From positions 1-34,323 of the IMG/VR virus record IMGVR_UViG_3300046809_000449: DNA of 34,323 bases; one strand, written 5' to 3'. Positions 777 through 31,170 of the stretch are shown piece after piece. The position numbers and the translations under genes were made by a program. Source of the DNA: a virus. The notes under the pieces are model-generated. The model ran no database searches. It was not told the DNA's origin and saw only the letters and a list, made by a program, of their open reading frames with translations. Every line of letters begins with the position of its first letter. Within the stretch, counting starts at the first letter, position 1.

Positions 777-3113
777 ATGGGCACAATAAGCCAGCGCATC
801 ACCATCGAAGGCGGCGATGACGTCAAGAAGCAACTCGAAGACATCGGCAAGGCTGGCGAAAAGTCGGTCAAGCAGATCCAGGACGCTGCACAGGGCGGCG
901 GCGACGGTTTTACCAAAGTCGCCGAGGCTGCCTCGAAGGCTGCCGACGCATTCGCCGGAATCGGCGCGGCGGCCGAGCAGATTGGCGCCAGGCTTTCGGA
1001 GCTGACCGGTTCGTTTGCGGGGCTTTCGGCCGCGGTTTCGGCGCTGGCCGAGACCGCCCAGGCGAGCTTCGCTGGTGCTGCCGATGCAACGGACAAGTTC
1101 GGCACCGCCGTCGGGCAGGTCGCCGACAAGCTCACCCAGATCGAGGCCGAAGGCGGCAAGGCTGCCGAAGCCATTCAAACAGTTAGTGTGGCCAGCCAGC
1201 AGGCCACAGCCAATCTCCAGCAATCCACGCAGGCGGCGGACAATTCTTCGAAGTCTTACGCCGGGCTCGGGCTTGCGGCGGTCCGGACGGGCGCATCTGT
1301 AGTGTCGGCGGGCGCATCGGTGGCGGGCGCGGCGACAGGTGTGGCGACGCTCGGAGTGTCGGCGATTGGGGCGGCGGCCCAGGTCGGCACCTTTGCGTTG
1401 GTATTGGGTCGCGTGCTGCTTGGCGCGGTCGGCGCGGCCGTGGTGGGCATCGAAGCGCTCTCCAGTGCCGCGCAAGGTTTTGCGAATAAGTACCAAGTGC
1501 TCAATCAACAGCTTCAGGCGCTGGCGCAGACCTCGGGGACGAGCTTTGAGTCGCTGCAGAAAGGCTCACAGGCGCTGGAGGCGATGGGCATCAAGGCCGA
1601 GACCGCCCGTAGCGCCGTGCTCAAGCTCGACGAACAGCTCAAGGGCTTCGACGTCGGCGCGAAGCTGAAGGAATCCGCCGACAAGCTGCTGGAGACCGAG
1701 AAGGCGCTGCTCGAGGCGCAGCTCGCGGTCGATGCGGCCGGTGGTAAGCGCGCCCCCTATGACGCGGCGGCTCGGCTCGTCGACATCAACCGGCAGCTCG
1801 AGGCGGCCACGAGCGAGCGGGCGAAGGCCGAGGAGGCAGCCAGCAAGGCGAGCGAGGCGCGCGCGGCTGCACTCGCAAACGACCTGGCGCGCATCATCCC
1901 GCTGATCAAGGCGATCGAGGAGGGGCAGCAGGGCATCACCTTCGACGAAGCTACGACGGCCGCGACCAAGATCGACGCGCTCAATGCCCGGCTCAAGCAG
2001 ATCAAGGACACGACCGGAGATGCCCGGCAGGCCTTTGTGAGCATCATCGCCAATGCCGCGTCGCTCAAGGATGCGCTCGCGTTCGGCAAGCTGGCCGGGT
2101 TTTCCGACGCCGATGTGGATCGCATCAGGAGGTTCGGCGGCGAGGCCGGCAAGATCCCGGATCTGTTCAAGCGGATGGAACAGTCGGGCGCGCTGATCGG
2201 CCCGCGCGCGAGCGCCTCGTTCGACCGGATGCGCACCAGCATTGAGGACGTCGAGAACGCGTGGACGCGGCTACAGCAGGCGTGGCAATCGACCATCTTC
2301 GCCGAGGCCGCCGCGCGCATTGGCTCGTTGCTGAACGATATCGAGGCCGGCTTCATCAACTTCGTGGCGCAGGGGTTGGAAGCCTTCAACCGGCTCGTCA
2401 ACGGCATCGTCGATTATTTCGCCCGTGTTCCGGCCGCTGTCGACGCTTCCATCGCGCAGGTGAAATCCGCCATCGAGACCTGGGTCACGACGCCAGTGTC
2501 GAATGCGTGGCAGTGGATCGTGGATACGTTCAACAGCACCGTGAGCTCGCTCGGCGCCGCAATAGATCAGGCTACGGCGCTCATCACCACCTGGGTCACG
2601 AAACCGGTCGCCAACGCCTGGCAATGGATCAAGGATGCGTTCAATAGCGTAGTGAGCAGTCTGTTCGGCGGAGGCGGCGGCGGCAAACTCGCTGCCGACG
2701 CGGGCCTCGGCGACATCGGCAGCCACGCGGGCGGTGGGTTGCTCGGTGGCCGCGGCAGCGGCACATCCGATTCAAATTTGATTTGGGCTTCGCGCGGTGA
2801 ACACATCATGCCGGCGGGGGCGGTAAGCCAACCGGGCGTGCTGGCCTTCCTCGAGGCGCTGCGGCGCTCGGGAGGTAATCTGCGGGATGTGCTCGACGGC
2901 ATGGGCCGCTTTGCGCTCGGCGGTCTGGTGCATGCGCCAATCGCGATCCCGGCCTTCGCCGGGGGCGGCATGAACCACGTCACCATTCAATTCCCCGGAT
3001 TGCCGGCCATAACAGGATTGCGCGCCTCGTCCGACGTGGTCGACGAACTACGCAAGGCCGCCGCAATGGCGCAGGTTAGAAGCGGTGGGAGGAAACCTTC
3101 TCGATACAGTTAA
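777..3113 (+). CDS. Tail tape measure protein
   Basis: A 778-residue protein of the kind that fills the tail tube, sets tail length and takes part in DNA ejection. The N-terminus (ISQRITIEGGDDVKKQLEDIGKAGEKS) is a typical tape measure start. Residues about 30-180 are alanine-rich coiled coil. About 185-235 is a hydrophobic Ala/Gly/Val stretch likely to be membrane-active. About 280-370 is a second long charged coiled coil. Two near-copies of a segment containing WVTxPVxNAWQWI occur around residues 565-620. A Gly-rich hinge (FGGGGGG) precedes a compact C-terminal domain. It is the longest gene in the window, as expected for the ruler protein. Confidence 0.88.
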   Translation: MGTISQRITIEGGDDVKKQLEDIGKAGEKSVKQIQDAAQGGGDGFTKVAEAASKAADAFAGIGAAAEQIGARLSELTGSFAGLSAAVSALAETAQASFAGAADATDKFGTAVGQVADKLTQIEAEGGKAAEAIQTVSVASQQATANLQQSTQAADNSSKSYAGLGLAAVRTGASVVSAGASVAGAATGVATLGVSAIGAAAQVGTFALVLGRVLLGAVGAAVVGIEALSSAAQGFANKYQVLNQQLQALAQTSGTSFESLQKGSQALEAMGIKAETARSAVLKLDEQLKGFDVGAKLKESADKLLETEKALLEAQLAVDAAGGKRAPYDAAARLVDINRQLEAATSERAKAEEAASKASEARAAALANDLARIIPLIKAIEEGQQGITFDEATTAATKIDALNARLKQIKDTTGDARQAFVSIIANAASLKDALAFGKLAGFSDADVDRIRRFGGEAGKIPDLFKRMEQSGALIGPRASASFDRMRTSIEDVENAWTRLQQAWQSTIFAEAAARIGSLLNDIEAGFINFVAQGLEAFNRLVNGIVDYFARVPAAVDASIAQVKSAIETWVTTPVSNAWQWIVDTFNSTVSSLGAAIDQATALITTWVTKPVANAWQWIKDAFNSVVSSLFGGGGGGKLAADAGLGDIGSHAGGGLLGGRGSGTSDSNLIWASRGEHIMPAGAVSQPGVLAFLEALRRSGGNLRDVLDGMGRFALGGLVHAPIAIPAFAGGGMNHVTIQFPGLPAITGLRASSDVVDELRKAAAMAQVRSGGRKPSRYS

Positions 3114-3144
3114 AAGAAAAGGCCTCAGCCGTTAAGCTGAGGCC
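3112..3144 (-). terminator. Intrinsic terminator on the minus strand
   Basis: A perfect 9-bp stem (GGCCTCAGC / GCTGAGGCC, 3121-3144) with a 6-base loop. Read on the minus strand it is followed at once by TTTTCTTTT, a standard Rho-independent layout. Read on the plus strand the following bases are CCTCGTC, so it should not end late transcription. The T-tract overlaps the tape measure stop codon. Confidence 0.7.
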
Positions 3145-3155
3145 CCTCGTCGTCT

Positions 3156-3235
3156 CCATGCCGTGCCGTGCCATGCCTCGCCTGGCCCCACCGGGCCCAG
3201 CCACACCTCGCCGTGCCATGCCTCGCCGGGCCGTG
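3156..3235. repeat. Pentamer array A (16 x CCNNG)
   Basis: Eighty bases made of 16 units in strict 5-base phase. Each begins CC and 14 end in G (CCGTG, CCATG, CCTCG, CCGGG and similar). It lies in the 167-base gap between the tape measure gene and the next tail gene. This is the only copy in the rightward late region, so here the CCNNG strand is the mRNA-like strand, opposite to the eight arrays in the early operon. Confidence 0.9.
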
Positions 3236-3244
3236 AACGATTTT

Positions 3245-3274
3245 ATTTTACCCGACAAACGCAACCAGAGTCGA
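3245..3274 (-). promoter_or_regulatory. Candidate minus-strand promoter for the antisense RNA
   Basis: Minus-strand -35-like TCGACT (3269-3274), 18-bp spacer, and -10-like TAAAAT (3245-3250); a second overlapping TAAAAT lies at 3240-3245. The predicted start falls just before the pentamer array. This AT-rich patch stands out in very G+C-rich DNA. Confidence 0.4.
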
Positions 3275-3280
3275 TAGCCG

Positions 3281-3664
3281 ATGCCTCCGATGACTTTGCT
3301 CTCGATCGATGGAATCGATTTCAGCCCCTGGGCCGCGCGCGGCATCACGATGACGTTGGAGCCGATTCAGCAGGCGGCCAATCTGGCGCGCGATTGCCGC
3401 GGCGAGCTGGTCGACATCTCGCTTGAGCAGTTTCGGCAGCACAAAGTTTCGGTTACCTGCACCGATCACGAGGCGCCGGAATTAAGCGGCATTTGGCCCG
3501 GTCAGAGCGTAACCATCGAATGCATTCCCTATCTCGGGGCATCGAATACAACCGGCGACGTGCTGACCCTTTTGGCGAGGGTAACGGCCTGGAGTACCTC
3601 ACGCGATGAATGGGCGGCAGAAACCGCGTGGAAATTGGAAGCCGAGCAGCGAGTGATCGCCTGA
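3281..3664 (+). CDS. Minor tail protein, unknown function
   Basis: A 127-residue protein following the tape measure gene and overlapping the next gene's ATG by one base (TGATG), so it belongs to the tail operon. It starts MTLLSIDGIDFSPWAARGITMTLEPI and contains VTCTDHEAPELSGIWPGQSVTIECIPYL, consistent with a beta-rich tail component. It has no recognisable catalytic motif. Two ATG codons (3281 and 3290) are possible; neither has a strong ribosome site. Position and size fit small distal-tail or adaptor proteins of siphoviruses, but no family was recognised. Confidence 0.6.
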   Translation: MPPMTLLSIDGIDFSPWAARGITMTLEPIQQAANLARDCRGELVDISLEQFRQHKVSVTCTDHEAPELSGIWPGQSVTIECIPYLGASNTTGDVLTLLARVTAWSTSRDEWAAETAWKLEAEQRVIA

Positions 3665-5625
3665 TGCCCGCCGGGACGGTTTATTTTTCCTGGATCGATC
3701 CGGGCGAGACGGTATTCGGGCCCGAGCATATGCGCTGGGACGAGAACATCTTCTCGTTCAGCATGAAGCAGGATGAGGGCGATCCGGCGAGCATGACTAT
3801 CGTTGTTCGCCGGCCGCGCAACGAGGCCGGCAATGCGATCGGCCTTCTCGGTCCCGGCCGCAAGATCTGGGCGTGGTTCGCGCTCGACTGTGGACCGGAC
3901 CTGATCAGGTTTCGCGGTCGGCTCGTCGGTGTTCCGACCAGCATTTTCGAGGAGCTGGTGACGTTGGAGTTCGTCGCGCGGCCGATCGATCTCGTGGCGC
4001 AGAAGGCTGCGCTCGCCGACACGTTGCGTGTGCTGCCATATTACGACGAGGTGGTGATCGATCCGACGCGGCGCACCGATCCGGAGGTCGTGCTCGAGGG
4101 TTACAGCAAGATTTGGCATTATGACCGCGAGACCCACGTCCTGACAGTGTCGGACGAGATCACCGGCGAAGACGGCCTCGTCGAATTCGATGGCGCCAGC
4201 GAAGACGGCAAGGTGCTCTATGACGGCCTCGGCCTCACACTCACCTCTGGGCCGCTGGCGCGTGTCGACATCAAGGCAGAATTCACCTGGACCCAGTTGG
4301 CGAACGGCAATGTTGACCTCACCCATTACCTGGTCAGTCACTGGGGAAGCGGAGGGCCAAACTATATCACGTCATACACGCTCGAGGCCGCCGATTGGCC
4401 AAAGGCCGGCGCCACCATCGGCGCCGGCTGGACCGTCGCGGACGCCACGGCCGCCAATGTTTATGGGGACTACCAGACCAAAAGCACGACCACGGGCAGC
4501 ACCCTCACCGTCACATTCCCAGATGACTCATGGTTCGGCCCGTCGTCACACACCACAACCTTCTCGCAAACCGAAACAACGTTCAACAAGCCGCCAGGCT
4601 CGATTCCATACCCCGAACCGCCTGTAGATAACGCGCAGTGGAAGGACGCCATCGGCGAGGAGTCTGTTTTCGGAACCTCGACCTACATAGCATCCTTCAG
4701 TCGAAACTATTCCCAGAACACGCCCGTACTGGCGCTGAACTACACGGTGCCGACCCTGGTGGCGGGTTATACAGCAAATCGGCAATGCTCCGAGCTGGTG
4801 TCGTTCTCGCTGTTTGCCGATGTGCAGTCCGTTCTGACTGATCCCGATGATGGTGAGGCGCTGAGCATCCTCGATATCAAATCGGTCAACCTCAGCGAAG
4901 CGATCGGCGAAGGCACGGGCGCCTATGTGCCGATCGGAGACCCGCGGCGGCGATCCTATATCGCAACAGAGCGCGGCAACGAAAGCGTCGAGCATCTGAT
5001 TGCGCTGGCGCGGGCGCACCTGATGCAACGGGCGCGCGTCGTCGAGATAGCGGTTGTGCCGAAGCTGTCGCGCATGCCGGAAATCACGTTGCGTAAGAAC
5101 GCCTTTCTGGTCGAACCGCGCGTCGGCGAGGCGCTCGGCAAGATCATCGGTTATTCGTTGGCTCTTGATGGCTCGGATGGTCGGATCAAGTGTGAGGTTC
5201 GTATCGGTTGCGCCATCGGCCGCGGTGGTTCGGCCGTGGCCGCCGGCGGGCTGCCGACCTATTGCGAGATTGCCTATACTGGCGCCGATTACCAGCAGTT
5301 CACCGGTCGTGTGGTGCTGTTCGACAGTTCCGTCGGCTATCAGCCACCGAACGCCGATCCTAACGATGACGGCATTAACTTCCTGTCTGTGCTCAGGCCA
5401 GAAGATGTGATTGAGACGCCGCTGGTTGTCGAGTTCGGGGCGGACGAGCAATGGTCGAACGTTGCGGGCTTGAAAACTCAGGAGCAGGTTACAGAACAAC
5501 TGAAAAAAGTCGAAACCCGCGCCACCTTCAAGCTCAAGAGCATGACTCGTCAATTCTCGAGCGATTACGAATTACAAGTCACCGATCTGCAAATTCCGAC
5601 CGGCTATGATCTGGAGGCGGTGTGA
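3664..5625 (+). CDS. Tail hub/baseplate-like protein
   Basis: A 653-residue protein. The ATG at 3664 overlaps the previous stop codon and fits better than the upstream in-frame start, which would lie inside the preceding gene. The first ~190 residues (FSMKQDEGDPASMTIVVRRP, then FRGRLVGVPTSIFEELVTLEFVARPID and a segment with SKIWHYDRETHVLTVSDE) look like the hub domain of tail proteins that cap the tube. The middle is Ser/Thr-rich beta sequence. The C-terminus has a repeat-like beta domain (FLSVLRPEDVIETPLVVEF). Order after the tape measure matches the distal tail module. No enzymatic motif was seen. Confidence 0.6.
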   Translation: MPAGTVYFSWIDPGETVFGPEHMRWDENIFSFSMKQDEGDPASMTIVVRRPRNEAGNAIGLLGPGRKIWAWFALDCGPDLIRFRGRLVGVPTSIFEELVTLEFVARPIDLVAQKAALADTLRVLPYYDEVVIDPTRRTDPEVVLEGYSKIWHYDRETHVLTVSDEITGEDGLVEFDGASEDGKVLYDGLGLTLTSGPLARVDIKAEFTWTQLANGNVDLTHYLVSHWGSGGPNYITSYTLEAADWPKAGATIGAGWTVADATAANVYGDYQTKSTTTGSTLTVTFPDDSWFGPSSHTTTFSQTETTFNKPPGSIPYPEPPVDNAQWKDAIGEESVFGTSTYIASFSRNYSQNTPVLALNYTVPTLVAGYTANRQCSELVSFSLFADVQSVLTDPDDGEALSILDIKSVNLSEAIGEGTGAYVPIGDPRRRSYIATERGNESVEHLIALARAHLMQRARVVEIAVVPKLSRMPEITLRKNAFLVEPRVGEALGKIIGYSLALDGSDGRIKCEVRIGCAIGRGGSAVAAGGLPTYCEIAYTGADYQQFTGRVVLFDSSVGYQPPNADPNDDGINFLSVLRPEDVIETPLVVEFGADEQWSNVAGLKTQEQVTEQLKKVETRATFKLKSMTRQFSSDYELQVTDLQIPTGYDLEAV

Positions 5626-7025: not shown

Positions 7026-8830
7026 GCTATCTGGAAATGCAGACCTCTCCGCTTCCCGATATGAAGAGCGGAATCATTTCGGTATGGTTTCGTGACCCGA
7101 CTCTGAACCCTGCTCCGGTCGCGGACAATTGGCCACTTCCGATGCCGCCGGATACGCTCGCTTATGCCGACAATCATCCGCTCGAGGCGTTGTTCTGGAA
7201 CGCTTACGGGATTCCGATCCCGCAGTTCGGCCGGATTCTGCTTTTCCCCGCGCCGGTCACGCTGCCGTATCCGCCACCGTTGCAGACCGACACGATGCAT
7301 ATGCTGCTCACGTTCGGAGACACCGATCAGAGCTATGACTATTGCCCATGGATTTTGGAATATCCCGAGGTTTTACAATACGTCCATTACACCGGCGCGC
7401 CGGTTCCCGGCGTCGGATTCGATCCGGTTAACTGGCCCGCGCCTTATGCGCCCTATTATTTTTTTCTCTTCGGCGGCGACAAGGGTAAATTCAAGGTCGC
7501 CAACTACAGGCTTGGCGGCCCGCAGCCGCGGGCTGGCATTGTTCCGCAGTCGTTCATCGGCGTCGATCAAGACGGCTATATAAGGATTTGTCTGCAAACC
7601 AAAACCAAGGCCGACTATAAGGGATATGCATACCAACTCGACAAGATCACCAACATCATGGCGACGGCGACCAATACAGGTGACCCTCCACCGGCCGGGG
7701 CGCCTCCGCTCCAGATATGGCCCGGCTACTGGGATGGCTATCAATTCGCGCATAAGGATGTTTCCAACCAAATCATGGCGGCTGCGCCCGAGTGCTTCGT
7801 CATTGGGAGCGGTCCACCCAATATCAATGACGGTGGTGAGGGACCGCGGGTTTCCGGCACAGGCTGGCATCATCTATTGTTTTCTTTCAACATCGACGGC
7901 GAGGTGACAGAGGATCAACTTGAGCAAAGCACGACATATAACACCCCTTATATTTCGGCATTCAGCACCTTTTGCAGAGCTTGGTTGGCACTGGATGATG
8001 TCAACTATACAGGGACCGCATTGCAGAAAGCGTATCTCATACATCAAGGAACATACGGACTGCCGCTGCTGCCGGGGCAGGGCGGAAATCTCGATGGCGC
8101 TTTTGGAACGACGCACGTTTTCCCGAGGCGTTATTTCGGGAACATCGGCAACAACGACATCATTCCGCAGAATGCCTGGCTGTACGGTGCAACCGGAACG
8201 CCGCGAAGCGGGATCGTGGAGACCTACACCAGTTCGGCCGGCATATCGAACGGGCTCGCGCCCCTCGGGTCGCCTGCCGGCGATTTTCAAGCATTGAACT
8301 GGGCAGGACTCCTGGCCACCAGTTATTACGGAGCGGCGGCGGTGATACCGCTCAATCCGCCTCGACCTGATATCCCGAACCCGATGACATATTATGATCC
8401 GCCAAGCTATCGGGGCGGCCCCTTTGTGCTCCCGACCGCGGGCTTTCCCATCGGCATCCCGGTGCAGCGGCGCCATCTCAAGCACAACACCGGCATTGAG
8501 ATGGCCGAGCTTCAGATATGGGCAAACAAGACACTGGACACCGGCGACGTGACCATGCGCCGTTTGTTCCTTGACTACCCGAACGACGAGAACGGCAATC
8601 CCGATAAGACCAAACCAATGGAGCCGGTAGACCCGAGCGTGGCCGCCAAAGTGTTGGGTCAGCCGGACATTCTGCTGAACGGCACCGACGATTGGAAAAC
8701 CGGACGGAACACCGGCAAGTTGGGAGTCACTACCGACAAAAACGGCAATCCGGTAATTATCCGGGCCGGGCAGTTTCAGGCCATCGGCAAGATAGAGCAG
8801 TTTCTGCCAGATCCCCAACTCGGGAAGTGA
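7022..8830 (+). CDS. Large tail fibre/receptor-binding candidate
   Basis: A 602-residue protein. AGGAGG at 7012-7017 points to the TTG at 7022 as start (an ATG 15 bases later is the alternative). The N-terminus has PDMKSGIISVWFRDP. Around residues 250-345 a region with GTGWHHLLFSFNIDGEV and AWLALDDVNYTG resembles a concanavalin/LamG-like jelly roll. ELQIWANKTLDTGDVTMRRLF near residue 500 may be the strand that completes that fold after a long insertion. Rich in Pro, Gly, Tyr and Trp. Lectin-like binding is inferred from sequence character only. Confidence 0.55.
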   Translation: MSYLEMQTSPLPDMKSGIISVWFRDPTLNPAPVADNWPLPMPPDTLAYADNHPLEALFWNAYGIPIPQFGRILLFPAPVTLPYPPPLQTDTMHMLLTFGDTDQSYDYCPWILEYPEVLQYVHYTGAPVPGVGFDPVNWPAPYAPYYFFLFGGDKGKFKVANYRLGGPQPRAGIVPQSFIGVDQDGYIRICLQTKTKADYKGYAYQLDKITNIMATATNTGDPPPAGAPPLQIWPGYWDGYQFAHKDVSNQIMAAAPECFVIGSGPPNINDGGEGPRVSGTGWHHLLFSFNIDGEVTEDQLEQSTTYNTPYISAFSTFCRAWLALDDVNYTGTALQKAYLIHQGTYGLPLLPGQGGNLDGAFGTTHVFPRRYFGNIGNNDIIPQNAWLYGATGTPRSGIVETYTSSAGISNGLAPLGSPAGDFQALNWAGLLATSYYGAAAVIPLNPPRPDIPNPMTYYDPPSYRGGPFVLPTAGFPIGIPVQRRHLKHNTGIEMAELQIWANKTLDTGDVTMRRLFLDYPNDENGNPDKTKPMEPVDPSVAAKVLGQPDILLNGTDDWKTGRNTGKLGVTTDKNGNPVIIRAGQFQAIGKIEQFLPDPQLGK

Positions 8831-8834
8831 TCCG

Positions 8835-9134
8835 ATGTCCAGCGTCATCGAAAACATCAAGGGCATGACAAGAGAGCAAAAGCTCGTCGAAATAGTGAAT
8901 TATTTTTCTGGCCAAGGGACCGCCATCGACATCAATTACATTTTGGAGATCCAGAACGCGTTCACCGATTCGGCACTCGATGCCGCTCTGCTCAGGGTCA
9001 CAGACATTTCAGCGACCGATACCGCTCTGCTAAAGAGAGTCACGGGCATCGTGAATTGTCTCCTGGCCGGTCAGGCCATGTCGGCAGAACAGTTGGCCGA
9101 GGTACAACAGCGAATCTATAATCGGGCGACGTAA
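8835..9134 (+). CDS. Hypothetical fibre-region protein
   Basis: A 99-residue, mainly helical protein (MSSVIENIKGMTREQKLVEIVNYF, then IDINYILEIQNAFTDSALDAALL). It starts 4 bases after the fibre gene and ends directly against the next ATG, so it is part of the same operon. No family was recognised. It could be a fibre chaperone or a small structural subunit. Confidence 0.5.
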   Translation: MSSVIENIKGMTREQKLVEIVNYFSGQGTAIDINYILEIQNAFTDSALDAALLRVTDISATDTALLKRVTGIVNCLLAGQAMSAEQLAEVQQRIYNRAT

Positions 9135-10064
9135 ATGCTCAGTTGTCACGTAGTCCAGAGCCCCAGAGGGGTGGTGTTGCTGACGGAGGTTGCGGAGACG
9201 GCAGTTGCCGCGGATTTGACCAACAGCGGCGTCCTGTTCGCTGCTCTGATCGATGATCCGGCTTCGGCCAATGACAGCCTGGATGCCTTCCTCGGCCAGG
9301 TCATGCTCGAGACGGCGAGTGCTGACGAAGTCGTCAATGCCGGATTTGCCTACGCCTCCACGATTACGGAGGCGGCGAGTGCCTCCGACGTGTCTTCGGC
9401 TTTGGTGCCTATTGTGGGGACCGTGGTCGAGACGGTGACTGCGGCATCTACGCAGGATTCCACGGTGATCGCCGGCACTGTTCTTGCCACGCTTGATGGC
9501 GCCACGGCTAATGTGACGATGTCGAACGGAAATCTCAAAGCAACGCACAATGCAGCGGTTACCAATTCCGGGACGCGCAGCACTACGATCAAGAGTGCAG
9601 GCAAATATTATTTCGAGGTCACCATCGGAGCAAGCAATGGGGCTTTCGACGATGTTGGCATTATTCTTTCAACCGGCACCTACGCCAACGTCATGTCGGG
9701 CCAGAGCTGCACCACTTGTTACAGCAGCTCAAGCGGAATGATCTGGTCGAATAACTCTAATTCCGGCCGTGCTCTGGGTGCGGCGTTTGCACCGGGGATG
9801 ATCATTCAGGTAGCCGTCGACCTCACGGCTAGAAAAGGCTGGTTCCGCACTGGCGGGACGCCGACTACGCCCTGGAATAATCAGCCCACGGACGATCCAG
9901 CGACCGGCGTCGGCGGGGTAACAATTGCTGCATCGGGGTCGTTTGCTCCGTTCATCGGGTTCGGGGGATCACCTGCGGGTAATGTCGGCGATAATTTCAC
10001 GGCGAATTTTGGCCAGTCTGCCTATGCCAACGCCGCGCCATCTGGGTTTGGCAACTGGAGCTAA
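9135..10064 (+). CDS. SPRY-domain-like tail protein
   Basis: A 309-residue protein. The first ~115 residues are repetitive: segments with the pattern ETASADEVVNAGF, EAASASDVSSALV and ETVTAASTQDSTV recur, probably a fibrous stalk. Residues from about 118 form a SPRY/B30.2-type beta sandwich: VTMSNGNLKATHNA, then GKYYFEVTI, DDVGIILSTGTY, PGMIIQVAVDLTARKGWFR and FAPFIGFGG, in the usual order. Such domains occur in phage fibre proteins and are thought to bind host surface ligands. Its ATG follows the preceding stop without a gap. Confidence 0.65.
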   Translation: MLSCHVVQSPRGVVLLTEVAETAVAADLTNSGVLFAALIDDPASANDSLDAFLGQVMLETASADEVVNAGFAYASTITEAASASDVSSALVPIVGTVVETVTAASTQDSTVIAGTVLATLDGATANVTMSNGNLKATHNAAVTNSGTRSTTIKSAGKYYFEVTIGASNGAFDDVGIILSTGTYANVMSGQSCTTCYSSSSGMIWSNNSNSGRALGAAFAPGMIIQVAVDLTARKGWFRTGGTPTTPWNNQPTDDPATGVGGVTIAASGSFAPFIGFGGSPAGNVGDNFTANFGQSAYANAAPSGFGNWS

Positions 10065-16851: not shown

Positions 16852-16931
16852 CCCTGCCTTGCCATGCCTCGCCAAGCCATGCCAAGCCGCGCCCGGCCAA
16901 GCCTCGCCGCGCCAGGCCGCGCCTCGCCGCA
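16852..16931. repeat. Pentamer array B (16 x CCNNG)
   Basis: Eighty bases, 16 units in strict 5-base phase, starting CCCTG and ending CCGCA. It begins (in transcription order) 2 bases after the ParB-like gene's stop codon and ends before the ribosome site of the next gene. Confidence 0.9.
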
Positions 16932-16933
16932 TC

Positions 16934-17593
16934 TCAAGCCGCGGTCGATTTTGCCGCCTTCATATCCGCCCAAAGCGAAATCAGCCTTTCCATCTCATGC
17001 GCAAAACCATCGGACCGCGGCCACATATCGGTCTCGATCAGTACGCAAAGCTGACGAAGGTGGAACGTCGCCTTGCCGCCGCTGTATCGCCGATTGAGCG
17101 CTTGTTGCTCTGTGTTGAGCGTTTCGCCGTGTAGGTGGCTCAAACCGCCCTTGAGCGCGATAGGATGGCCGTCCGGCGCGCTAGCAAAGCCGCGCTCGAT
17201 CTTTTCGATCCTTTCGAGAGGCAGACGGACCACTTCGGCGATTTGCTCGCGCGTATAGCCATACTGCTCCAATCGAAGCACCGAATGACGGATCGTATAT
17301 TGATCAAGCGGCGTGCCGTGGCTGATATTTAACCTAACAGCGTCGGCGAACAGGTCGGCGTCGCTGGCATACTTTTTTTCGATGACATCTACCTTGGTTA
17401 TACCCTTGCGCTTGTAAACCTCTAAACGGTGGCGCCCATCGACGAGACGGTGAGTCTTTGCCTCCACCACGATCGGAGGAAACTTGGCGCCCGCCTCGCC
17501 GGCGAGCGCGAGTCGCTGAATGTTGAACTCGCTCACGCCATTTCTGGGATACACAGTCTCGTCGAGTACTATTTCGTCGATCGCTAGTTTCAT
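16934..17593 (-). CDS. ParB/Srx-fold domain protein
   Basis: A 219-residue protein from ATG 17593, which has a near-perfect ribosome site (AAGGAGG). The frame stays open upstream only because it crosses the pentamer arrays. Residues ~1-95 hold a ParB-like nuclease/CTPase-type domain: DEIVLDETVYPR, then FPPIVVEA and LVDGRHRLEVY (DGRHR at 52-56). A helical region with YTREQIAEVVRLPLERIEKIER follows, resembling the HTH part of ParB. It may act in plasmid-like maintenance, replication or gene control. Arrays lie on both sides of it. Confidence 0.75.
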   Translation of the reverse strand: MKLAIDEIVLDETVYPRNGVSEFNIQRLALAGEAGAKFPPIVVEAKTHRLVDGRHRLEVYKRKGITKVDVIEKKYASDADLFADAVRLNISHGTPLDQYTIRHSVLRLEQYGYTREQIAEVVRLPLERIEKIERGFASAPDGHPIALKGGLSHLHGETLNTEQQALNRRYSGGKATFHLRQLCVLIETDMWPRSDGFAHEMERLISLWADMKAAKSTAA

Positions 17594-17613
17594 CGGTTCC
17601 TCCTTAGTCAAAA

Positions 17614-17972
17614 CCCTGCCCTGCCTCGCCAAGCCGCGCCATGCCGCGCCCAGCCCCGCCACGCCGCGCCGCGCCTTGCCTCGCCTCGCCCAGCCGCAAC
17701 TCATGCAATTCACAAAGTATCCCTGCCTCGCCATGCCGCGCCGTGCCGCGCCTCGCCAGGCCACGCCGGGCCCGGCCCCGCCGCAACGGAAATCCAACAA
17801 AGTAGCCCTGCCAAGCCGCGCCACGCCGCGCCGCGCCGCGCCGCGCCTTGCCCAGCCGCAACTCATGCAATTCACAAAGTATCCCTGCCTCGCCCTGCCG
17901 TGCCGTGCCCTGCCTTGCCGCGCCGCGCCGCGCCAGGCCACGCCGTGCCCGGCCAAGCCTCGCCGCGCCATA
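17614..17972. repeat. Four tandem pentamer arrays C-F with conserved spacers
   Basis: Arrays C (17614-17698, 17 units), D (17721-17785, 13), E (17806-17860, 11) and F (17883-17972, 18), all CCNNG in 5-base phase. Each starts CCCTG; C, D and E end CCGCA. They are separated by non-pentamer spacers of 22, 20 and 22 bases. The C/D and E/F spacers (17699-17720, 17861-17882) are identical and the D/E spacer is related, all sharing the core ACAAAGTA. This cluster fills the whole gap between two genes and is non-coding. Confidence 0.9.
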
Positions 17973-17975
17973 CCT

Positions 17976-18617
17976 TCAATCTTCGACTGTGAACGATCGC
18001 ACCGCGAAGCGACCGAACGGGCCGTTCTTCTGAGGCCGATAATCGCCAACGCCCATGCGGTTGCCGGCATCGCCCATGATTTCGGCGATGATCTCTGGCG
18101 ATTTGATCAGCACTGGATCAAATTCAACGCTGAATGTCGCGGACCACTCGTCGAAACGCGGTCGTCGTCGAATGATGCCCTGGCGCTGGACAATCGCGCG
18201 TCTACTGTCGATCACATAGTCCTTGATCGGCGAGCCGTCCCGACGCTGCAGAGGGATCAATTCTTCGGACACCACAACATGGGCGAGGTGGCTCTTCATG
18301 GTCGAGCGCTTGGCCTTCCAGGCACCGGCGGCGCCAAGCAGCGAGGCGCGGAAGGCTTCGCCCTTGATGGCGCATGTGCCGTCCGGGAGGCGATAGACGC
18401 CGTTCTCGGCTTCTACTTCGGCCTCAGGGATTCTCGTGCCGCGCTTGGCGCTCGTATCGCCGCCCATGGATTCCGGGTTGTGTGTGAGCAGCGGCTTGAT
18501 GCCATCGACGGTGATCCGAATTGTGCGGATCGTTGGCGCTGCTGGCCCAAGTGCAGGTTCTGACGCCGCCGGTATGGAAACTTTCGCTTTTAGTTTCGTC
18601 GTCGTTTTATCCAACAT
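17976..18617 (-). CDS. Conserved phage protein, unknown function
   Basis: A 213-residue protein from ATG 18617 (GGGAGAG upstream); the longer frame to 18686 crosses array G and is rejected. It contains IRITVDGIKPLLTHNPESM, CAIKGEAFRASLLGAA, YVIDSRRAIVQRQGIIRRRPRFDEW and, near the C-terminus, GDYRPQKNGPFGRF. The pattern LTHNP ... GDYRP ... GPFGRF marks a family I believe recurs in alphaproteobacterial phages but cannot name. It lies among replication/recombination genes, bracketed by arrays. No catalytic motif was seen. Confidence 0.6.
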   Translation of the reverse strand: MLDKTTTKLKAKVSIPAASEPALGPAAPTIRTIRITVDGIKPLLTHNPESMGGDTSAKRGTRIPEAEVEAENGVYRLPDGTCAIKGEAFRASLLGAAGAWKAKRSTMKSHLAHVVVSEELIPLQRRDGSPIKDYVIDSRRAIVQRQGIIRRRPRFDEWSATFSVEFDPVLIKSPEIIAEIMGDAGNRMGVGDYRPQKNGPFGRFAVRSFTVED

Positions 18618-18640
18618 GCTGTGCTCTCCCTTGTTTAAGA

Positions 18641-18715
18641 CCCTGCCTTGCCGTGCCCTGCCATGCCTTGCCTCGCCCCGCCTCACCCGGCCTCGCCCGG
18701 CCTCGCCAGGCCATA
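18641..18715. repeat. Pentamer array G (15 x CCNNG)
   Basis: Seventy-five bases, 15 units, starting CCCTG and ending CCATA. It sits between the stop of the DnaA-domain gene (18720) and the ribosome site of the 213-residue gene. Confidence 0.9.
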
Positions 18716-18719
18716 TCCA

Positions 18720-19256
18720 TCAAATGTCATCCATATGAAATCGCATCGAGCGGACCCACTGATGCACCGTCGCGTTCTCCGGCATGCCATCCGCGGCAGC
18801 GGCGAGCACGGGCGCTAGCTTGCGTATGGCGTGCAGCACGGTCGTATGATCGAAGCCGCCGGCTCGCCGGCCGATCTCGGGCATGCTCTTGCGCGTCAAA
18901 TGCCGGGCGAGCGCGAAGGTCAGCGACCGCGGTGCCACCACAACGGCAAAGCGGCGGCGCCCGAACAGCTCGTGCCGGGTGATGTGGAATTCATCGCACA
19001 CCGCCTTGGCCACTTCTTCGAACCGTGACAACGGGTGGCGCAGCATAACCGCAAAGCTCGCGGGCAGCTCCACCGGATCGTTTGACGCAGGTGGCGGCGC
19101 GGGCACCTTTTTTGTGCGGCGCCGGCGCGGCGGGCGGATTGTTTCAGGCGGCGCGGGCATGAGCTCTTGCCAAAATGCCGAATGAATAGCCCGGTATCTC
19201 GCCAGCATTTCCTCGGCGCTCGAATAATCCGGCACTTGTGCGGGTGCGACCTTCAT
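18720..19256 (-). CDS. DnaA domain-IV (origin-binding) protein
   Basis: A 178-residue protein. Residues ~75-165 match the C-terminal DNA-binding domain of DnaA: AVCDEFHITRHELFGRRRFAVVVAPRSLTFALARHL, then PEIGRRAGGFDHTTVLHAIRKL (about residues 126-147), the DnaA signature helix. There is no AAA+ ATPase domain; the N-terminal ~70 residues are Pro/Arg-rich and unordered. It could bind DnaA boxes to act in phage replication or to interfere with host initiation. Its ATG overlaps the preceding gene's stop (ATGA). Confidence 0.82.
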   Translation of the reverse strand: MKVAPAQVPDYSSAEEMLARYRAIHSAFWQELMPAPPETIRPPRRRRTKKVPAPPPASNDPVELPASFAVMLRHPLSRFEEVAKAVCDEFHITRHELFGRRRFAVVVAPRSLTFALARHLTRKSMPEIGRRAGGFDHTTVLHAIRKLAPVLAAAADGMPENATVHQWVRSMRFHMDDI

Positions 19257-19459
19257 TGCAGAGCATCCCGTTCACCACTTTCGATCTCGGCGACGCGCGC
19301 CATCAGGCTCGTTATCGCAACGTCTCGATCCGCATCGTGATGATGGAGAAACCACGCAATCATGGTCGCAAGCATGCCCTCGCGGCCGTCATCGTTGAAC
19401 GGTGTCAAGATGTTGCACATGGCGTCGAGATCGCGACGCACCTCCGATTCGGATTTCAT
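19253..19459 (-). CDS. Small hypothetical protein
   Basis: A 68-residue protein (MKSESEVRRDLDAMCNILTPF through to VAEIESGERDALQ). A GTG two codons upstream (19465) is an alternative start, and it would overlap the stop of a possible 19-residue ORF. The protein is helical and acidic with MLATMIAWFLHHHDAD in the middle. Its stop overlaps the start of the DnaA-domain gene, so the two are likely co-translated. Function unknown. Confidence 0.55.
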   Translation of the reverse strand: MKSESEVRRDLDAMCNILTPFNDDGREGMLATMIAWFLHHHDADRDVAITSLMARVAEIESGERDALQ

Positions 19460-19461
19460 TT

Positions 19462-19521
19462 TCACGACGCGCCTCGCTTTCCTTCGGCGATCATCAAGGC
19501 GTAAATCATCCAAGTATCCAT
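19462..19521 (-). CDS. Possible 19-residue leader peptide
   Basis: MDTWMIYALMIAEGKRGAS, starting at the last unit of array H and ending in TGA that overlaps a GTG of the next gene. The coupling is suggestive, but nothing else supports it. Confidence 0.2.
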   Translation of the reverse strand: MDTWMIYALMIAEGKRGAS

Positions 19522-19592
19522 GCCTCGCCGTGCCGTGCCTTGCCCGGCCTCGCCTCGCCGCGCCATGCCACGCCTCGCCGCGCCCCGCCACA
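19518..19592. repeat. Pentamer array H (15 x CCNNG)
   Basis: Seventy-five bases, 15 units in phase, separated from array I by a 20-base spacer (19593-19612) that carries the same ACAAAGTAT core as the spacers in arrays C-F. Confidence 0.9.
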
Positions 19593-19612
19593 TTCGGAAA
19601 TCCACAAAGTAT

Positions 19613-19687
19613 CCCTGCCTCGCCAAGCCTTGCCAGGCCAGGCCTTGCCAAGCCGTGCCTCACCGTGCCTCACCTTGCCGGGCCGGA
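19613..19687. repeat. Pentamer array I (15 x CCNNG), overlapping a gene end
   Basis: Fifteen units starting CCCTG. The last three units code for the final residues (SGPAR) of the 392-residue gene, and the gene's stop codon is inside the array. So the array has extended into coding sequence, or the gene end has been replaced by array. Confidence 0.88.
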
Positions 19688-20848
19688 TTCAATCTCATCG
19701 AACGCAGCTTTGATTTCCGCCGACAGCTCTGCGGTATCATCGGCCGACATTTGCGCGGCATTACGCAGGCTCCTGGCGTTCGGCCCGGACCACCACGCGA
19801 CGAAATCGGCGCTGGCCTTTCCACCGGCCAGTTTTGCGGCCTCGATGATCTGGCGCGTCAACATCCGAAAAACCTCGGGGTCTTTCGGCGGCCGTTTCTG
19901 CGCCATGGCGATCAGGGCGCCGACGGTCAACTCGGGATCGGCCCGCGACTCCTCGCCGTCGTGTTCGATCGCGGTGCTGGCGCCGGCCTCGTCGGATGGC
20001 GGCTGCAATCCTGCCGGCGTCGCGGCTGGTGGCCTTGCCGGCGCGGCCGGCGGCTGCGTCGCCTCGATCGCCGGGAACACCTCCTCGACTGTCGCCATGC
20101 CATCGGCGATGCTCTTCATCATCGCGATCACCCGGGCAACGTCGGGCGCCAGCCAATCCTTGCTGGCACGTCCGATAGTGCGCTCGACGCGGTTCAATGC
20201 GACCGGCACTTTCGCTAGTCCCTCGATGACGCGCTTGCGATAGGCGTCAAGATCGCGACCGATCTTGTCGACCAGGGAATTGCGCGCCAGCTCGAAGGCG
20301 TGATCCGCATAGATTTGCAGGGCGTTGACAATACAATTCCGAATACTTTTGCTTTGCCCAATTTGGTAACTTATATCCAACTGACGCTCGGCATCTTTGG
20401 TCTTTATCGATCCCTGCGACTTGCGTTGCCGATAGGCACGCTCCATCGAGAACCCGGTTTCGATATCGGTGAACCGCGCGTAGAAAACCCAGGCATCGCC
20501 GACGTCGATTTCCCGGATTTCGTTGACGTTATTGCCGAAGATGCGCGCAACATCATTGGCAAGCTTAATGCTTGGACCCTCGATCCAAGATTGACCGCCA
20601 TCCTTACTTTTTACTGGATACCGATAAAACCAGTCCGTGCCAGCAGCGGCAGCCAAGGCGGCCAGTTTCTGCAGTATCTTCGCCTCATCGCGATACACCG
20701 CGACCGGCTGGGCGCCGATGACGCGATCCGCGAGGCCGGTCGTTGGCCTAACGAGAGCATGACCACTTGGAATTGGTTGCTGGAGCTGTCCGGCCGCGTT
20801 GGCGAATTTGGTAAGCTCGCTCGTGCGCTGGGCGATGTCATCAGTCAT
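19670..20848 (-). CDS. Candidate single-strand annealing/recombination protein
   Basis: A 392-residue protein directly downstream of a YqaJ exonuclease gene (with an HNH gene between), the usual place for a RecT/ERF-type annealing partner. Residues ~50-240 form the main domain (KILQKLAALAAAAGTDWFYRYPV, WIEGPSIKLANDVARIFGN, YARFTDIETGFSMERAY, YQIGQSKSIRNCIVNALQIYAD). Residues ~255-315 are a Pro/Ala-rich linker, followed by a small helical C-terminal domain. No direct RecT or ERF signature was recognised, so the function is inferred from context. The last five codons lie in pentamer array I. Confidence 0.55.
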   Translation of the reverse strand: MTDDIAQRTSELTKFANAAGQLQQPIPSGHALVRPTTGLADRVIGAQPVAVYRDEAKILQKLAALAAAAGTDWFYRYPVKSKDGGQSWIEGPSIKLANDVARIFGNNVNEIREIDVGDAWVFYARFTDIETGFSMERAYRQRKSQGSIKTKDAERQLDISYQIGQSKSIRNCIVNALQIYADHAFELARNSLVDKIGRDLDAYRKRVIEGLAKVPVALNRVERTIGRASKDWLAPDVARVIAMMKSIADGMATVEEVFPAIEATQPPAAPARPPAATPAGLQPPSDEAGASTAIEHDGEESRADPELTVGALIAMAQKRPPKDPEVFRMLTRQIIEAAKLAGGKASADFVAWWSGPNARSLRNAAQMSADDTAELSAEIKAAFDEIESGPAR

Positions 20849-21345
20849 TTTGTCATCCTTTGTTGGTTATGTCTCTGTTCGATAGATGTTGCCCATCGAC
20901 AATTGTTTGGCTCGTAATTGCCATCTCCGTTGATTCGATCAATGGAACATCCAACGGGCCGCGCTCCCATATCGGCGAGAAAATTCTCGAAATGGTCCCA
21001 ACGAAAACACACTTTAATTCCGCGACCACCGTAGAATTCAAAACCGTTTGTACCCGGATGCGTGCATCGACCGTGCATAGCGAGCCAAGATCGATATGTT
21101 GGTGAGGCGTGCCCATTGACCCAATGGCCGTGCGTTTTTGAATTATGTCCGCGTTCGACAGCTCTTTCCCGATGAAAGCAGCCGCAGGATTTGCTGTTTC
21201 CTGTTCTCAAATTAGAGCCCGAGGCTATGATCTCTTGACCGCAGTCGCATAGACAGCGCCACAATCTCTTTCCATTTTTGGAGCCTGTCAGATTTATTAC
21301 GGTGAGACGTCCAAAGCGTTTGCCGGCAAGATCGATCGATTTCAT
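20845..21345 (-). CDS. HNH-type homing endonuclease
   Basis: A 166-residue protein from ATG 21345 (GGAGGCG upstream). The N-terminus LAGKRFGRLTVI leads into a zinc-finger-like region with WRCLCDCG (C31, C33, C35) and KSCGC (C54, C56), as in phage free-standing endonucleases of the HNH/AP2 group. The C-terminal part has SPTYRSWLAMHGRCTHP and YGGRGIKVCFRW, ending SIDRINGDGNYEPNNCRWA, the conserved end of the nuclease domain. The gene is A+T-richer than its neighbours. Both ends overlap neighbouring genes by ATGA, so it fits into the exonuclease-annealing operon without breaking it. Confidence 0.75.
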   Translation of the reverse strand: MKSIDLAGKRFGRLTVINLTGSKNGKRLWRCLCDCGQEIIASGSNLRTGNSKSCGCFHRERAVERGHNSKTHGHWVNGHASPTYRSWLAMHGRCTHPGTNGFEFYGGRGIKVCFRWDHFENFLADMGARPVGCSIDRINGDGNYEPNNCRWATSIEQRHNQQRMTK

Positions 21346-22289
21346 ACTCGCGCCTCCGATTTCAGGACACGGAACACTCGGAACGTCGAGGCCTCGACCA
21401 CATGGGACTTGCGGCTCTGCTGCTTCCACGACAGCAGGCGCCCATCGGCGAGTCGGCCGAGAGTGTGCTCGCCGAGCTTGCCGGTCAGCTCGGTTTTTAA
21501 TGCGGTTTCTTCCTTCCGCATTCTGCCGAGCGCGGCCTGCACCTCGGTCAACTCGTCGACCGCCACCATGGCGCGGTTGTCGTGAGTGAGATCGATCTCG
21601 CTGCCGTCATCGCGCGGATAGAGCGCCTTGACTAGCGCCGCATCGTTGGCCGGCTCGAACGGCGGCATGATGCCGGGGTCGAGATGGTCGTGCCAGAACG
21701 TGGCTGCGCAGGCGAGGATTCGCTCTTCAATGACGGCGTCGCGCTCGATCTCGAACAGGCGCAGGGTCCAATCGAACTCGCTGTTGACCAGGACCGCCAG
21801 GACGCCCCACGAGCATTCGTTCAGCATCATGGTGGTGAGCGTCTGAAGACGGTAGGCGGCTGGCGGCGTGGCGGGGCCATCGATGTAATCGTCCGGGAAA
21901 TCGAGCCATCGCTTGAAGACCGAGCGAGCGCTGACCTTGGCTTCGACGACGCCGAAGCCAGGCAGGTCTGGCCGAGTTGCGAAACCGTCGGGCGTGCAGG
22001 CGATCCGACGCTTGGTGTCGCGCACATGGACGCGGCCGCGCTGCACCTGCCATTCGGGCCGTTCCTCCGTGAGTGCTTGGAACACGGCGGCCTCGCCCCA
22101 GCGTCCGCGCCGGAAGATCGCGGAGTCCATCAGCGGCGGGCGCAGGCCTTTTTTCTCCGCATAGAGCTCGGCCATTGAGCCGAAGTTGGACACGCCGCAG
22201 AAAATTCCGGCTTCGCTGGCGTTGAGGAACTTGAGCCGATCCGCCAGGTGGGTCGCGTCGTCGGCGATGGGGATGCGCTCGACCGGCAT
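21342..22289 (-). CDS. YqaJ-family viral exonuclease
   Basis: A 315-residue nuclease of the lambda-exonuclease (PD-(D/E)XK) superfamily that would resect DNA ends for recombination. Residues ~20-190 hold the YqaJ domain: FLNASEAGIFCGVS, RRGRWGEAAV (E66), CTPDGF (D101) and GVVEAKVS (E116, K118). The acidic D-ExK set is complete. The C-terminal ~100 residues are helical (VDELTEVQAALGRMRKEETALKTEL) and end with a beta segment typical of the family. It pairs with the candidate annealing protein downstream. Confidence 0.85.
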   Translation of the reverse strand: MPVERIPIADDATHLADRLKFLNASEAGIFCGVSNFGSMAELYAEKKGLRPPLMDSAIFRRGRWGEAAVFQALTEERPEWQVQRGRVHVRDTKRRIACTPDGFATRPDLPGFGVVEAKVSARSVFKRWLDFPDDYIDGPATPPAAYRLQTLTTMMLNECSWGVLAVLVNSEFDWTLRLFEIERDAVIEERILACAATFWHDHLDPGIMPPFEPANDAALVKALYPRDDGSEIDLTHDNRAMVAVDELTEVQAALGRMRKEETALKTELTGKLGEHTLGRLADGRLLSWKQQSRKSHVVEASTFRVFRVLKSEARV

Positions 22290-23033: not shown

Positions 23034-23705
23034 TTACGCGATACTGCCCAGCCGGTTCTTGCGGCGCTTCAGGAACAAGCCACCGAGCGCCAACGCACCA
23101 CCGAACAGCGGCAGCGTGGCGGGGAGCGGCACGGCGGAAAGCGTCGCGTCGAAGTTTGTCAAGAGCACATTGCCGTTGCACCCTGCGCCGCAGGCCCCAG
23201 GTCCACCACCGAAGTAGAAGAAGTTGTAGTTGTCGTAGCCGCCGGCGAGAGTGTGGAAGCCCTCGTCGTTTGTGCCGCTGCTCTGGGCAAGCAGGGTAAG
23301 GGTAAACGGCGAGCCGTCCTCAGACCCATACACCGCCCAGCCTTCACCTTGGGTCGTCGAGCCCATCTGGAACGAGAACCCGCCCGCAGCCAGCGAGCTT
23401 CGGATACCATCCAGGTTGACCTGGACGAAGTTGCCCGCGGTGATTTCATGGTCGCCGGAAGGGTCGTTGTTGAGGCCGAGGCCGTTCTCGTCGCCGCCGC
23501 CGTTCTTACCGAACAGGGCAGTTCCAACGTCGCCCGGCGTGAAGCCGCGGGCAGTGAGGTTGAACCCACCCGCGGTGAAGGTTTGAGTTGTACCAAGCAC
23601 ACCGAGATGGTCCTGGAAGTTCCAGTCGAGCACAGTGGCCGAAGCCACGGTAGTGCCTGCGGCGAGCGCACCCAACATGGTGCCCGCTAGTAGTAACTGT
23701 CTCAT
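23034..23705 (-). CDS. PEP-CTERM (VPLPA-type) exported protein
   Basis: A 223-residue exported protein. Signal peptide MRQLLLAGTMLGALAAGTTVASA (1-23); a mature Gly/Asn-rich beta domain (FNLTARGFTPGDVGTALFGK, MGSTTQGEGWAVYGSEDG, YDNYNFFYFGGGPG); and a complete C-terminal sorting tag: VPLPA (192-196), transmembrane segment LPLFGGALALGGLFL and a basic tail KRRKNR. Exosortase systems recognise this tag and process the protein at the cell surface, usually with exopolysaccharide. AAAAAGGAAC lies upstream of the ATG, and hairpins lie after the stop. No exosortase is in the window, so a host enzyme would be needed. Confidence 0.8.
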   Translation of the reverse strand: MRQLLLAGTMLGALAAGTTVASATVLDWNFQDHLGVLGTTQTFTAGGFNLTARGFTPGDVGTALFGKNGGGDENGLGLNNDPSGDHEITAGNFVQVNLDGIRSSLAAGGFSFQMGSTTQGEGWAVYGSEDGSPFTLTLLAQSSGTNDEGFHTLAGGYDNYNFFYFGGGPGACGAGCNGNVLLTNFDATLSAVPLPATLPLFGGALALGGLFLKRRKNRLGSIA

Positions 23706-30730: not shown

Positions 30731-31170
30731 AACGGCATGAAACGCTGGTTTCGCGTTTACGAGGACGTTTTAGATGACCCGAAAGTGCAGCGCCTGTCCG
30801 GCGATCTGTTCAAGGTGCTTTTAAATTTGTGGTGCCTGACTTCACGAAACGATGGCGTATTGCCGCCCCTCGACGAGATTGTCTTTGCTACTCGCATGGA
30901 TTACGCATCTTGCGACAAGGCGTTGAAAGAACTGCAAAAACGTGGCTTGGTCGAAAACCATTCGGGTACCCTAAAGCCACACAATTGGAACGTTCGCCAA
31001 TTTAAAAACGACGTTTCAACAAACAGGGTGAAACGGTTTCGGCAACGGAAACGAAACGGTGGTGAAACGTTTCATGAAACGCCCCCAGAGAGAGAGACAG
31101 AGACAGATACAGATACAGAATCAGAGGGCAGAGAGAGAGTCGCGCGCGCGACCCCCCCTGAAACGTTTCA
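30728..31170. other. Candidate replication origin with TGAAACG iterons
   Basis: TGAAACG or its complement occurs at 30728, 30738, 31012 (complement), 31029, 31063, 31075 and 31159. Two of these lie in the perfect 12-bp palindrome TGAAACGTTTCA (31063-31074 and 31159-31170). A purine-rich GAGAGACAGAGA tract (about 31087-31140) lies between the palindromes, and AT-richer sequence lies near 30993-31010. An origin inside the initiator gene, coding for its flexible linker, is the lambda O arrangement. Origin function is inference. Confidence 0.45.

Follow-up and report, generated by a model that had tools for sequence, protein, structure and literature searches.

A predicted orphan vrRNA in a phage tail operon, aimed at related phages' alleles of the adjoining gene

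We analyzed a 34,323-nt stretch of viral DNA (IMG/VR record IMGVR_UViG_3300046809_000449, positions 1–34,323; hereafter the window) and propose that a short minus-strand array within its tail operon, array A, is in all likelihood an orphan vrRNA of a VIPR system, aimed at the adjacent tail gene of related phages and sparing the carrier's own, escaped copy. VIPR systems, described in a 2026 preprint, comprise a small RAMP protein, Vipr, and vrRNAs of 9–16 YNNGG units, in which each NN pair reads two adjacent DNA bases and one base, usually at the codon wobble position, is skipped before the next pair; the Vipr-vrRNA complex represses transcription in competing phages, and both the code and the biochemistry of repression have been published (PMC13142463). 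Judged from the comparisons presented here, the array A RNA would very probably silence rival phages and leave its carrier untouched.

The array A cassette and its slot

Array A, the predicted guide part of the vrRNA (3160–3234, minus strand), consists of 15 NNGGY units without interruption (15/15 conforming; 13 GGC and 2 GGT), with the NN pairs AC CC GA AT AC GA GT TG CC GG CA GA AT AC AC in unit order, and its 3'-most unit or units look constant, as expected of a handle. When the array is viewed as GCCNN on the plus strand two of its units seem imperfect (ACC), and since these are GGT on the minus strand, the unit rule is GGY. Dinucleotide-matched random 34-kb sequences contained NNGGY runs of at most 4 units. 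On the 5' side lies a promoter-like TCGACT-N18-TAAAAT (3245–3274, minus strand), assigned by motif scan and by its position relative to the array in six of the seven inserts described below; it is the sole such site in 2500–4000 (0.3 expected), a site arises by chance within the 55 nt preceding the array with P about 0.026, and ten bases separate TAAAAT from the first unit, with a probable RNA start near 3237–3239. The array is followed by a 3' handle (3121–3159, minus strand) composed of ATGGA GACGACGAGG and the hairpin GGCCTCAGC-TTAACG-GCTGAGGCC, whose 9-bp core (3121–3129/3136–3144) grows to 14 pairs with its extension, and directly thereafter by a TTTTCTTTT run (3112–3120, minus strand), a candidate intrinsic terminator that overlaps the plus-strand stop codon of the tape-measure gene; the predicted RNA, ending at 3112, would be about 125 nt long. 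The folding z-score of the array A RNA is −2.6; the array A region gave no Rfam match at the gathering score, the cassette matched no known RNA family, and a tRNA search found none.

The upstream neighbor of the cassette is the tape measure protein gene (777–3113, plus strand; phrog_3547) and the downstream one a putative tail gene of 127 aa (3281–3664, plus strand), whose product has no Pfam or PHROG match, yields a model too poor for fold assignment (pLDDT 66, no significant fold match) and appears weakly tail-like. Most of the 80 closest relatives of the 127-aa gene, retrieved for target comparison, have no insert at this junction, and their tape-measure stop codon touches or overlaps the start codon that follows; the slot insert of the window measures about 165 nt and is occupied by the array, the hairpin and the promoter region. 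Six other versions of the insert are found at exactly the same junction (L141, L143–145, L150, L151/154, L157/158 and L164, partly degenerate), with repeat units that differ from those of array A throughout. The hairpin is kept in six inserts, in 98% of pair cells, with two pairs changed on both sides, a covariation that rests on few sequences and was equaled in 81 of 500 shuffles; the L157 version has a different stem and no T-run. Promoter-like hexamer pairs end 9–11 nt before the array in six of the seven inserts, the window included. At the same tape-measure junction, L172 and L174 carry an array-free insert with an inverted repeat of its own (at about 2840–3000).

These comparisons bear on an earlier, sequence-only reading, which had taken the region for a candidate small-RNA gene on the minus strand, with a promoter and a terminator of its own. 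We re-located its array, promoter-like site, hairpin and TTTTCTTTT run on the minus strand with the same sequence and coordinates, and the existence of such a gene gains support from units that change across the seven inserts while the hairpin and promoter flank are largely kept. That reading also named conservation in array-keeping relatives as a check: the hairpin withstood it, the −10 box only loosely, as relatives do not keep the exact TAAAAT letters. The inserts further inform the possibility that the cassette is a relic, its guide matching relatives from past use and the cassette itself now idle. As a decaying element might, L164 has GAC in place of GGC in several units of its array, and the −10 of L141 is weak; the window, however, has 15 of 15 units intact, the second-best promoter score among the seven inserts, a kept hairpin and an intact Vipr frame, and we regard disuse as improbable.

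Guide targets in related phages and the carrier's own allele

With one base skipped between pairs, 27 of the 30 guide bases of array A match in relatives, inside the 127-aa gene, along codons reading APELTDVWPGQDIT. Skips of 0 and 2 gave 20–21/30, which is noise, and 120 shuffles of unit order gave no more than 24; a skip of 3 was discarded, as it recovered only the array itself. The last one to three units, near-constant between inserts, were treated as handle and set aside, a choice made once the matches had been seen. With its last unit set aside, array A reaches up to 26/28 in relatives' alleles of the 127-aa gene versus 20/28 in the window's own allele (3473–3519, plus strand; APELSGIWPGQSVT). 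Two exact-pattern scans of viral_contigs returned no perfect array A target, the best relative having 2 mismatches; a perfect target allele would read T-P-[DE]-[IM]-T-[DE]-V-[CW]-P-G-[HQ]-[DE]-[IM]-T. In genome_contigs neither the tail gene nor the early vrRNA handle had any relative.

The guides of the six other slot inserts, decoded in the same manner, yielded five complete matches and one of 25/26, five of the six falling in the 127-aa gene and the other in its tape-measure neighbor. Relatives' alleles of the 127-aa gene are matched by L141 (26/26), L143 (25/26), L164 (18/18) and, on the opposite strand, by L150 (24/24) and L151 (20/20, at the start codon), and L157 matches the 3' part of relatives' tape-measure gene, also on the opposite strand (22/22). 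For each of the seven guides the score was reached by 0 of 300 shuffles, and in 7/7 the skipped base falls at the codon wobble position. As for the effect of trimming, L150 requires none (24/24 versus a shuffle maximum of 19), untrimmed array A and L141 score above every shuffle, as does L151 (25/26 versus a maximum of 21); L143 untrimmed scores 25/30 and L157 is marginal, at 22/28 versus a maximum of 21. The L141 guide is perfect against the slot-bearing L143 and L151, as is the L157 guide against L150 and L151; with several guides thus addressing other slot-bearing phages, the relationship among these close relatives looks like one of mutual hostility.

Among 65 distinct alleles of the 127-aa gene, the carrier's own is the worst match for the array A, L141 and L143 guides, and for L150, L151 and L164, 2, 5 and 1, respectively, of about 64 other alleles are as bad or worse, although the alleles are related by descent and these ranks are therefore non-independent tests. 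Own alleles show 4–8 mismatches versus 0–2 in the best relatives, the own score being 18/24 for the L150 guide and 20/26 for the L141 guide, and for all six guides that address the 127-aa gene, divergence of the own allele from the family consensus exceeds the gene average inside the target site (combined Fisher P about 0.018). These data can be set against autoregulation, by which the vrRNA would target the tail gene of its own phage and keep late transcription low in lysogeny. The guide is indeed linked to that gene, and within the phage's own flanks the own site is the best array A match of all (21/30, reached by 0 of 400 shuffles); however, an own allele that ranks last of 65 for array A and for two other slot guides, relatives that match with 0–2 mismatches, and raised own divergence at the target sites speak against self-repression, and we deem it unlikely, if slightly less so than disuse of the cassette.

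Vipr and a proposed mode of action

The window encodes a 213-aa RAMP protein (17976–18617, minus strand; phrog_4652) that profile, tblastn and fold matches identify as Vipr, its gene lying with an intact frame among the early arrays, about 15 kb from array A in the same record. A family profile built from 61 members, with the window protein at its head, retrieved PDB 36pp_D, "SUSP1 Vipr protein" (E=1.4e-42); the single sequence found SUSP1 Vipr at 2.4e-6, and tblastn against the SUSP1 gene gave 2e-5. Its AlphaFold model (pLDDT 90) has Csm3/Cas7 as best folds (Z 13 over about 165 residues). A DNA array pattern of nine GCCNN units, used as the sole criterion, retrieved 120 viral loci, and a Vipr-like protein is encoded in 85 of them. 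A second record, G004, combines a slot array carrying another guide with a 100% identical Vipr; vipr stands alongside the slot in these two record kinds only, most slot-bearing records being fragments. Strict slot-vipr linkage across relatives was rejected, with three slot-less relatives carrying other Vipr-like matches. In one slot-less relative the Vipr-like match (L242, G031:30460–31059) contains a TAA stop and may be an inactivated copy.

Further afield, Vipr homologs occur beside GGC arrays near the repressor/excisionase region of mycobacteriophage Mattes (L019; gp52) and many related mycobacteriophages, where they are annotated as hypothetical, and in Pseudomonas phage vB_Pae_LESphi2 of P. 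aeruginosa LESB58 (hit H34, 4906–5478; 27% identity, E 1e-10). Locus L230 has a Vipr-like gene upstream of a very long, near-continuous NNGGY run (8134–9412), as opposed to the separated arrays of the window.

From these elements we propose that the slot vrRNA would be transcribed from its own promoter, load onto Vipr in trans and direct it to the target gene on the DNA of a related phage, whether superinfecting, co-infecting or resident in the same cell, and binding within the late operon would block transcription of the target and the genes downstream, such that the rival would make no virions. The phage's own target copy, having presumably drifted beyond recognition, sits beside the guide, and the two would be co-inherited like a poison and its antidote. 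Recombination with a relative would split a distant guide from the escaped allele, and linkage is thus the best explanation for the placement of the cassette beside its own target copy. More broadly, the tail-operon junction is probably a hypervariable slot in this phage group for exchangeable stand-alone vrRNAs against the flanking tail-gene alleles of other lineages, every one of them coupled to an own allele that has escaped, in a form of RNA-guided poison-antidote or marker exclusion that would drive allele turnover and block recombination between competing phages; we hold this wider reading with good, though lesser, confidence than the assignment of array A itself.

The proposed action resembles the interference competition exerted by phage homing endonucleases and the marker exclusion of T-even phages, in which a selfish cassette acts on the corresponding locus of a relative in the same cell and the carrier's allele is immune. 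One such homing endonuclease is the intron endonuclease of phage PhiPA3 (PMC11620839). Unlike these, the slot insert is noncoding, with no nuclease encoded in its roughly 165 nt, recognition would be by RNA, and the outcome is probably repression rather than cutting. Class 1 CRISPR-Cas systems share the RAMP fold, related to Csm3/Cas7, and RNA-guided target choice; by contrast, the window has no repeat-spacer array, a guide read in gapped pairs and a single small protein, and a CRISPR array was rejected as an identity for array A, as its repeats are units of just 5 nt in which 2 nt vary.

The closest known counterpart is the type II VIPR of Escherichia phage SUSP1 (PMC13142463; PDB 36pp), which has a homologous RAMP protein of about 20 kD, vrRNAs of NNGGY units with a structured 3' tail, and one-base-skip matches with wobble skips to competing phages. 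The same defining features are found here: a RAMP protein related to SUSP1 Vipr, tandem units with conserved GGY and variable NN (in which the slot guides differ), an invariable structured 3' tail in the form of the hairpin kept in six inserts, and a one-nucleotide skip at wobble positions in competing-phage targets for 7/7 slot guides. What sets the window apart from SUSP1 is a predicted vrRNA that has a promoter and a terminator of its own and lies in the tail operon, in antisense direction and away from the vipr locus, and a guide that addresses relatives' alleles of the adjoining gene, the own allele having escaped. This candidate orphan cassette, with own promoter and terminator and linked to an escaped target copy, is new: the main text of PMC13142463 does not contain the words self, adjacent, allele or orphan, nor the layout in which a guide adjoins the escaped allele of its target. 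Such a layout makes self/non-self discrimination by VIPR directly testable and suggests a route of guide evolution in which guide and own allele diverge together. The seven wobble-phase guides moreover provide independent confirmation of the one-base-skip code from natural sequences, in a phage group far from SUSP1, and the many targets present in nature, matched as well as mismatched, could show how far a very small RNA-guided DNA-binding system tolerates mismatches.

The early arrays and their surroundings

All eight further arrays, B–I, lie at 16856–19686, with the same orientation throughout and GGY in every unit, in line with the earlier claim that array A is the only one in the rightward late region. 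They are, on the minus strand, array B (16856–16930; 15 units, tail AGGGATATTTTG), C (17618–17697; 16 units), D (17725–17784; 12 units, tail AGGGATACTTTG), E (17805–17859; 11 units), F (17887–17971; 17 units), G (18645–18714; 14 units, immediately upstream of vipr), H (19522–19591; 14 units) and I (19617–19686; 14 units). A scan for minus-strand promoters and terminators found none around them, and at that scan's sensitivity array A alone is enclosed by such a pair, again as first noted. The early arrays have a common tail, GGATACTTTG, which differs from the slot handle; a single Vipr is assumed to load both kinds of vrRNA.

The sequence-only reading had further envisaged antisense cross-talk, with CCNNG in late mRNA through array A pairing with CNNGG in early RNA, and array A could more generally be a classical antisense sRNA. 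It is antisense to the late mRNA, and the scaffold common to all arrays makes them partly complementary by construction. Yet the letters that early and late arrays have in common belong to a scaffold that is fixed in all vrRNAs; it is the variable NN pairs that carry the information, and with one base skipped these match the DNA of relatives. An antisense function is therefore unsupported. It would also leave unexplained the GGY/NN periodicity, the presence of a Vipr gene, the one-base-skip matches, their wobble phase and the results with shuffled unit order, and we consider it the least probable of the alternatives, very unlikely indeed.

Across about 2.5 Mb of loci, arrays B–H had no target clearly above shuffles, and matches of the early guides to the phage's own flanks were not significant. 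The guide of array I, identical in record G004, matches 21/22 in the RecT-like gene of a relative (G027) once three 3' units are set aside. The C-terminal part of that gene's product is homologous to the window gene adjoining array I directly upstream (19670–20848, minus strand; phrog_3657), which holds the own allele of the addressed segment and matches at 15/22. ParB-like and DnaA-C-like genes flank vipr, and a Pfam search of ten early proteins matched no Cas family. Near the arrays is an HNH endonuclease gene (20848–21429, minus strand; phrog_374), probably a mobile homing gene. Farther along, a 223-aa protein (23034–23705, minus strand) combines an N-terminal signal with a VPLPATLPLFGGALALGG...RRKN tail resembling a PEP-CTERM-like sorting signal, and a CAGAGA hexanucleotide is repeated about 9 times at 31086–31139.
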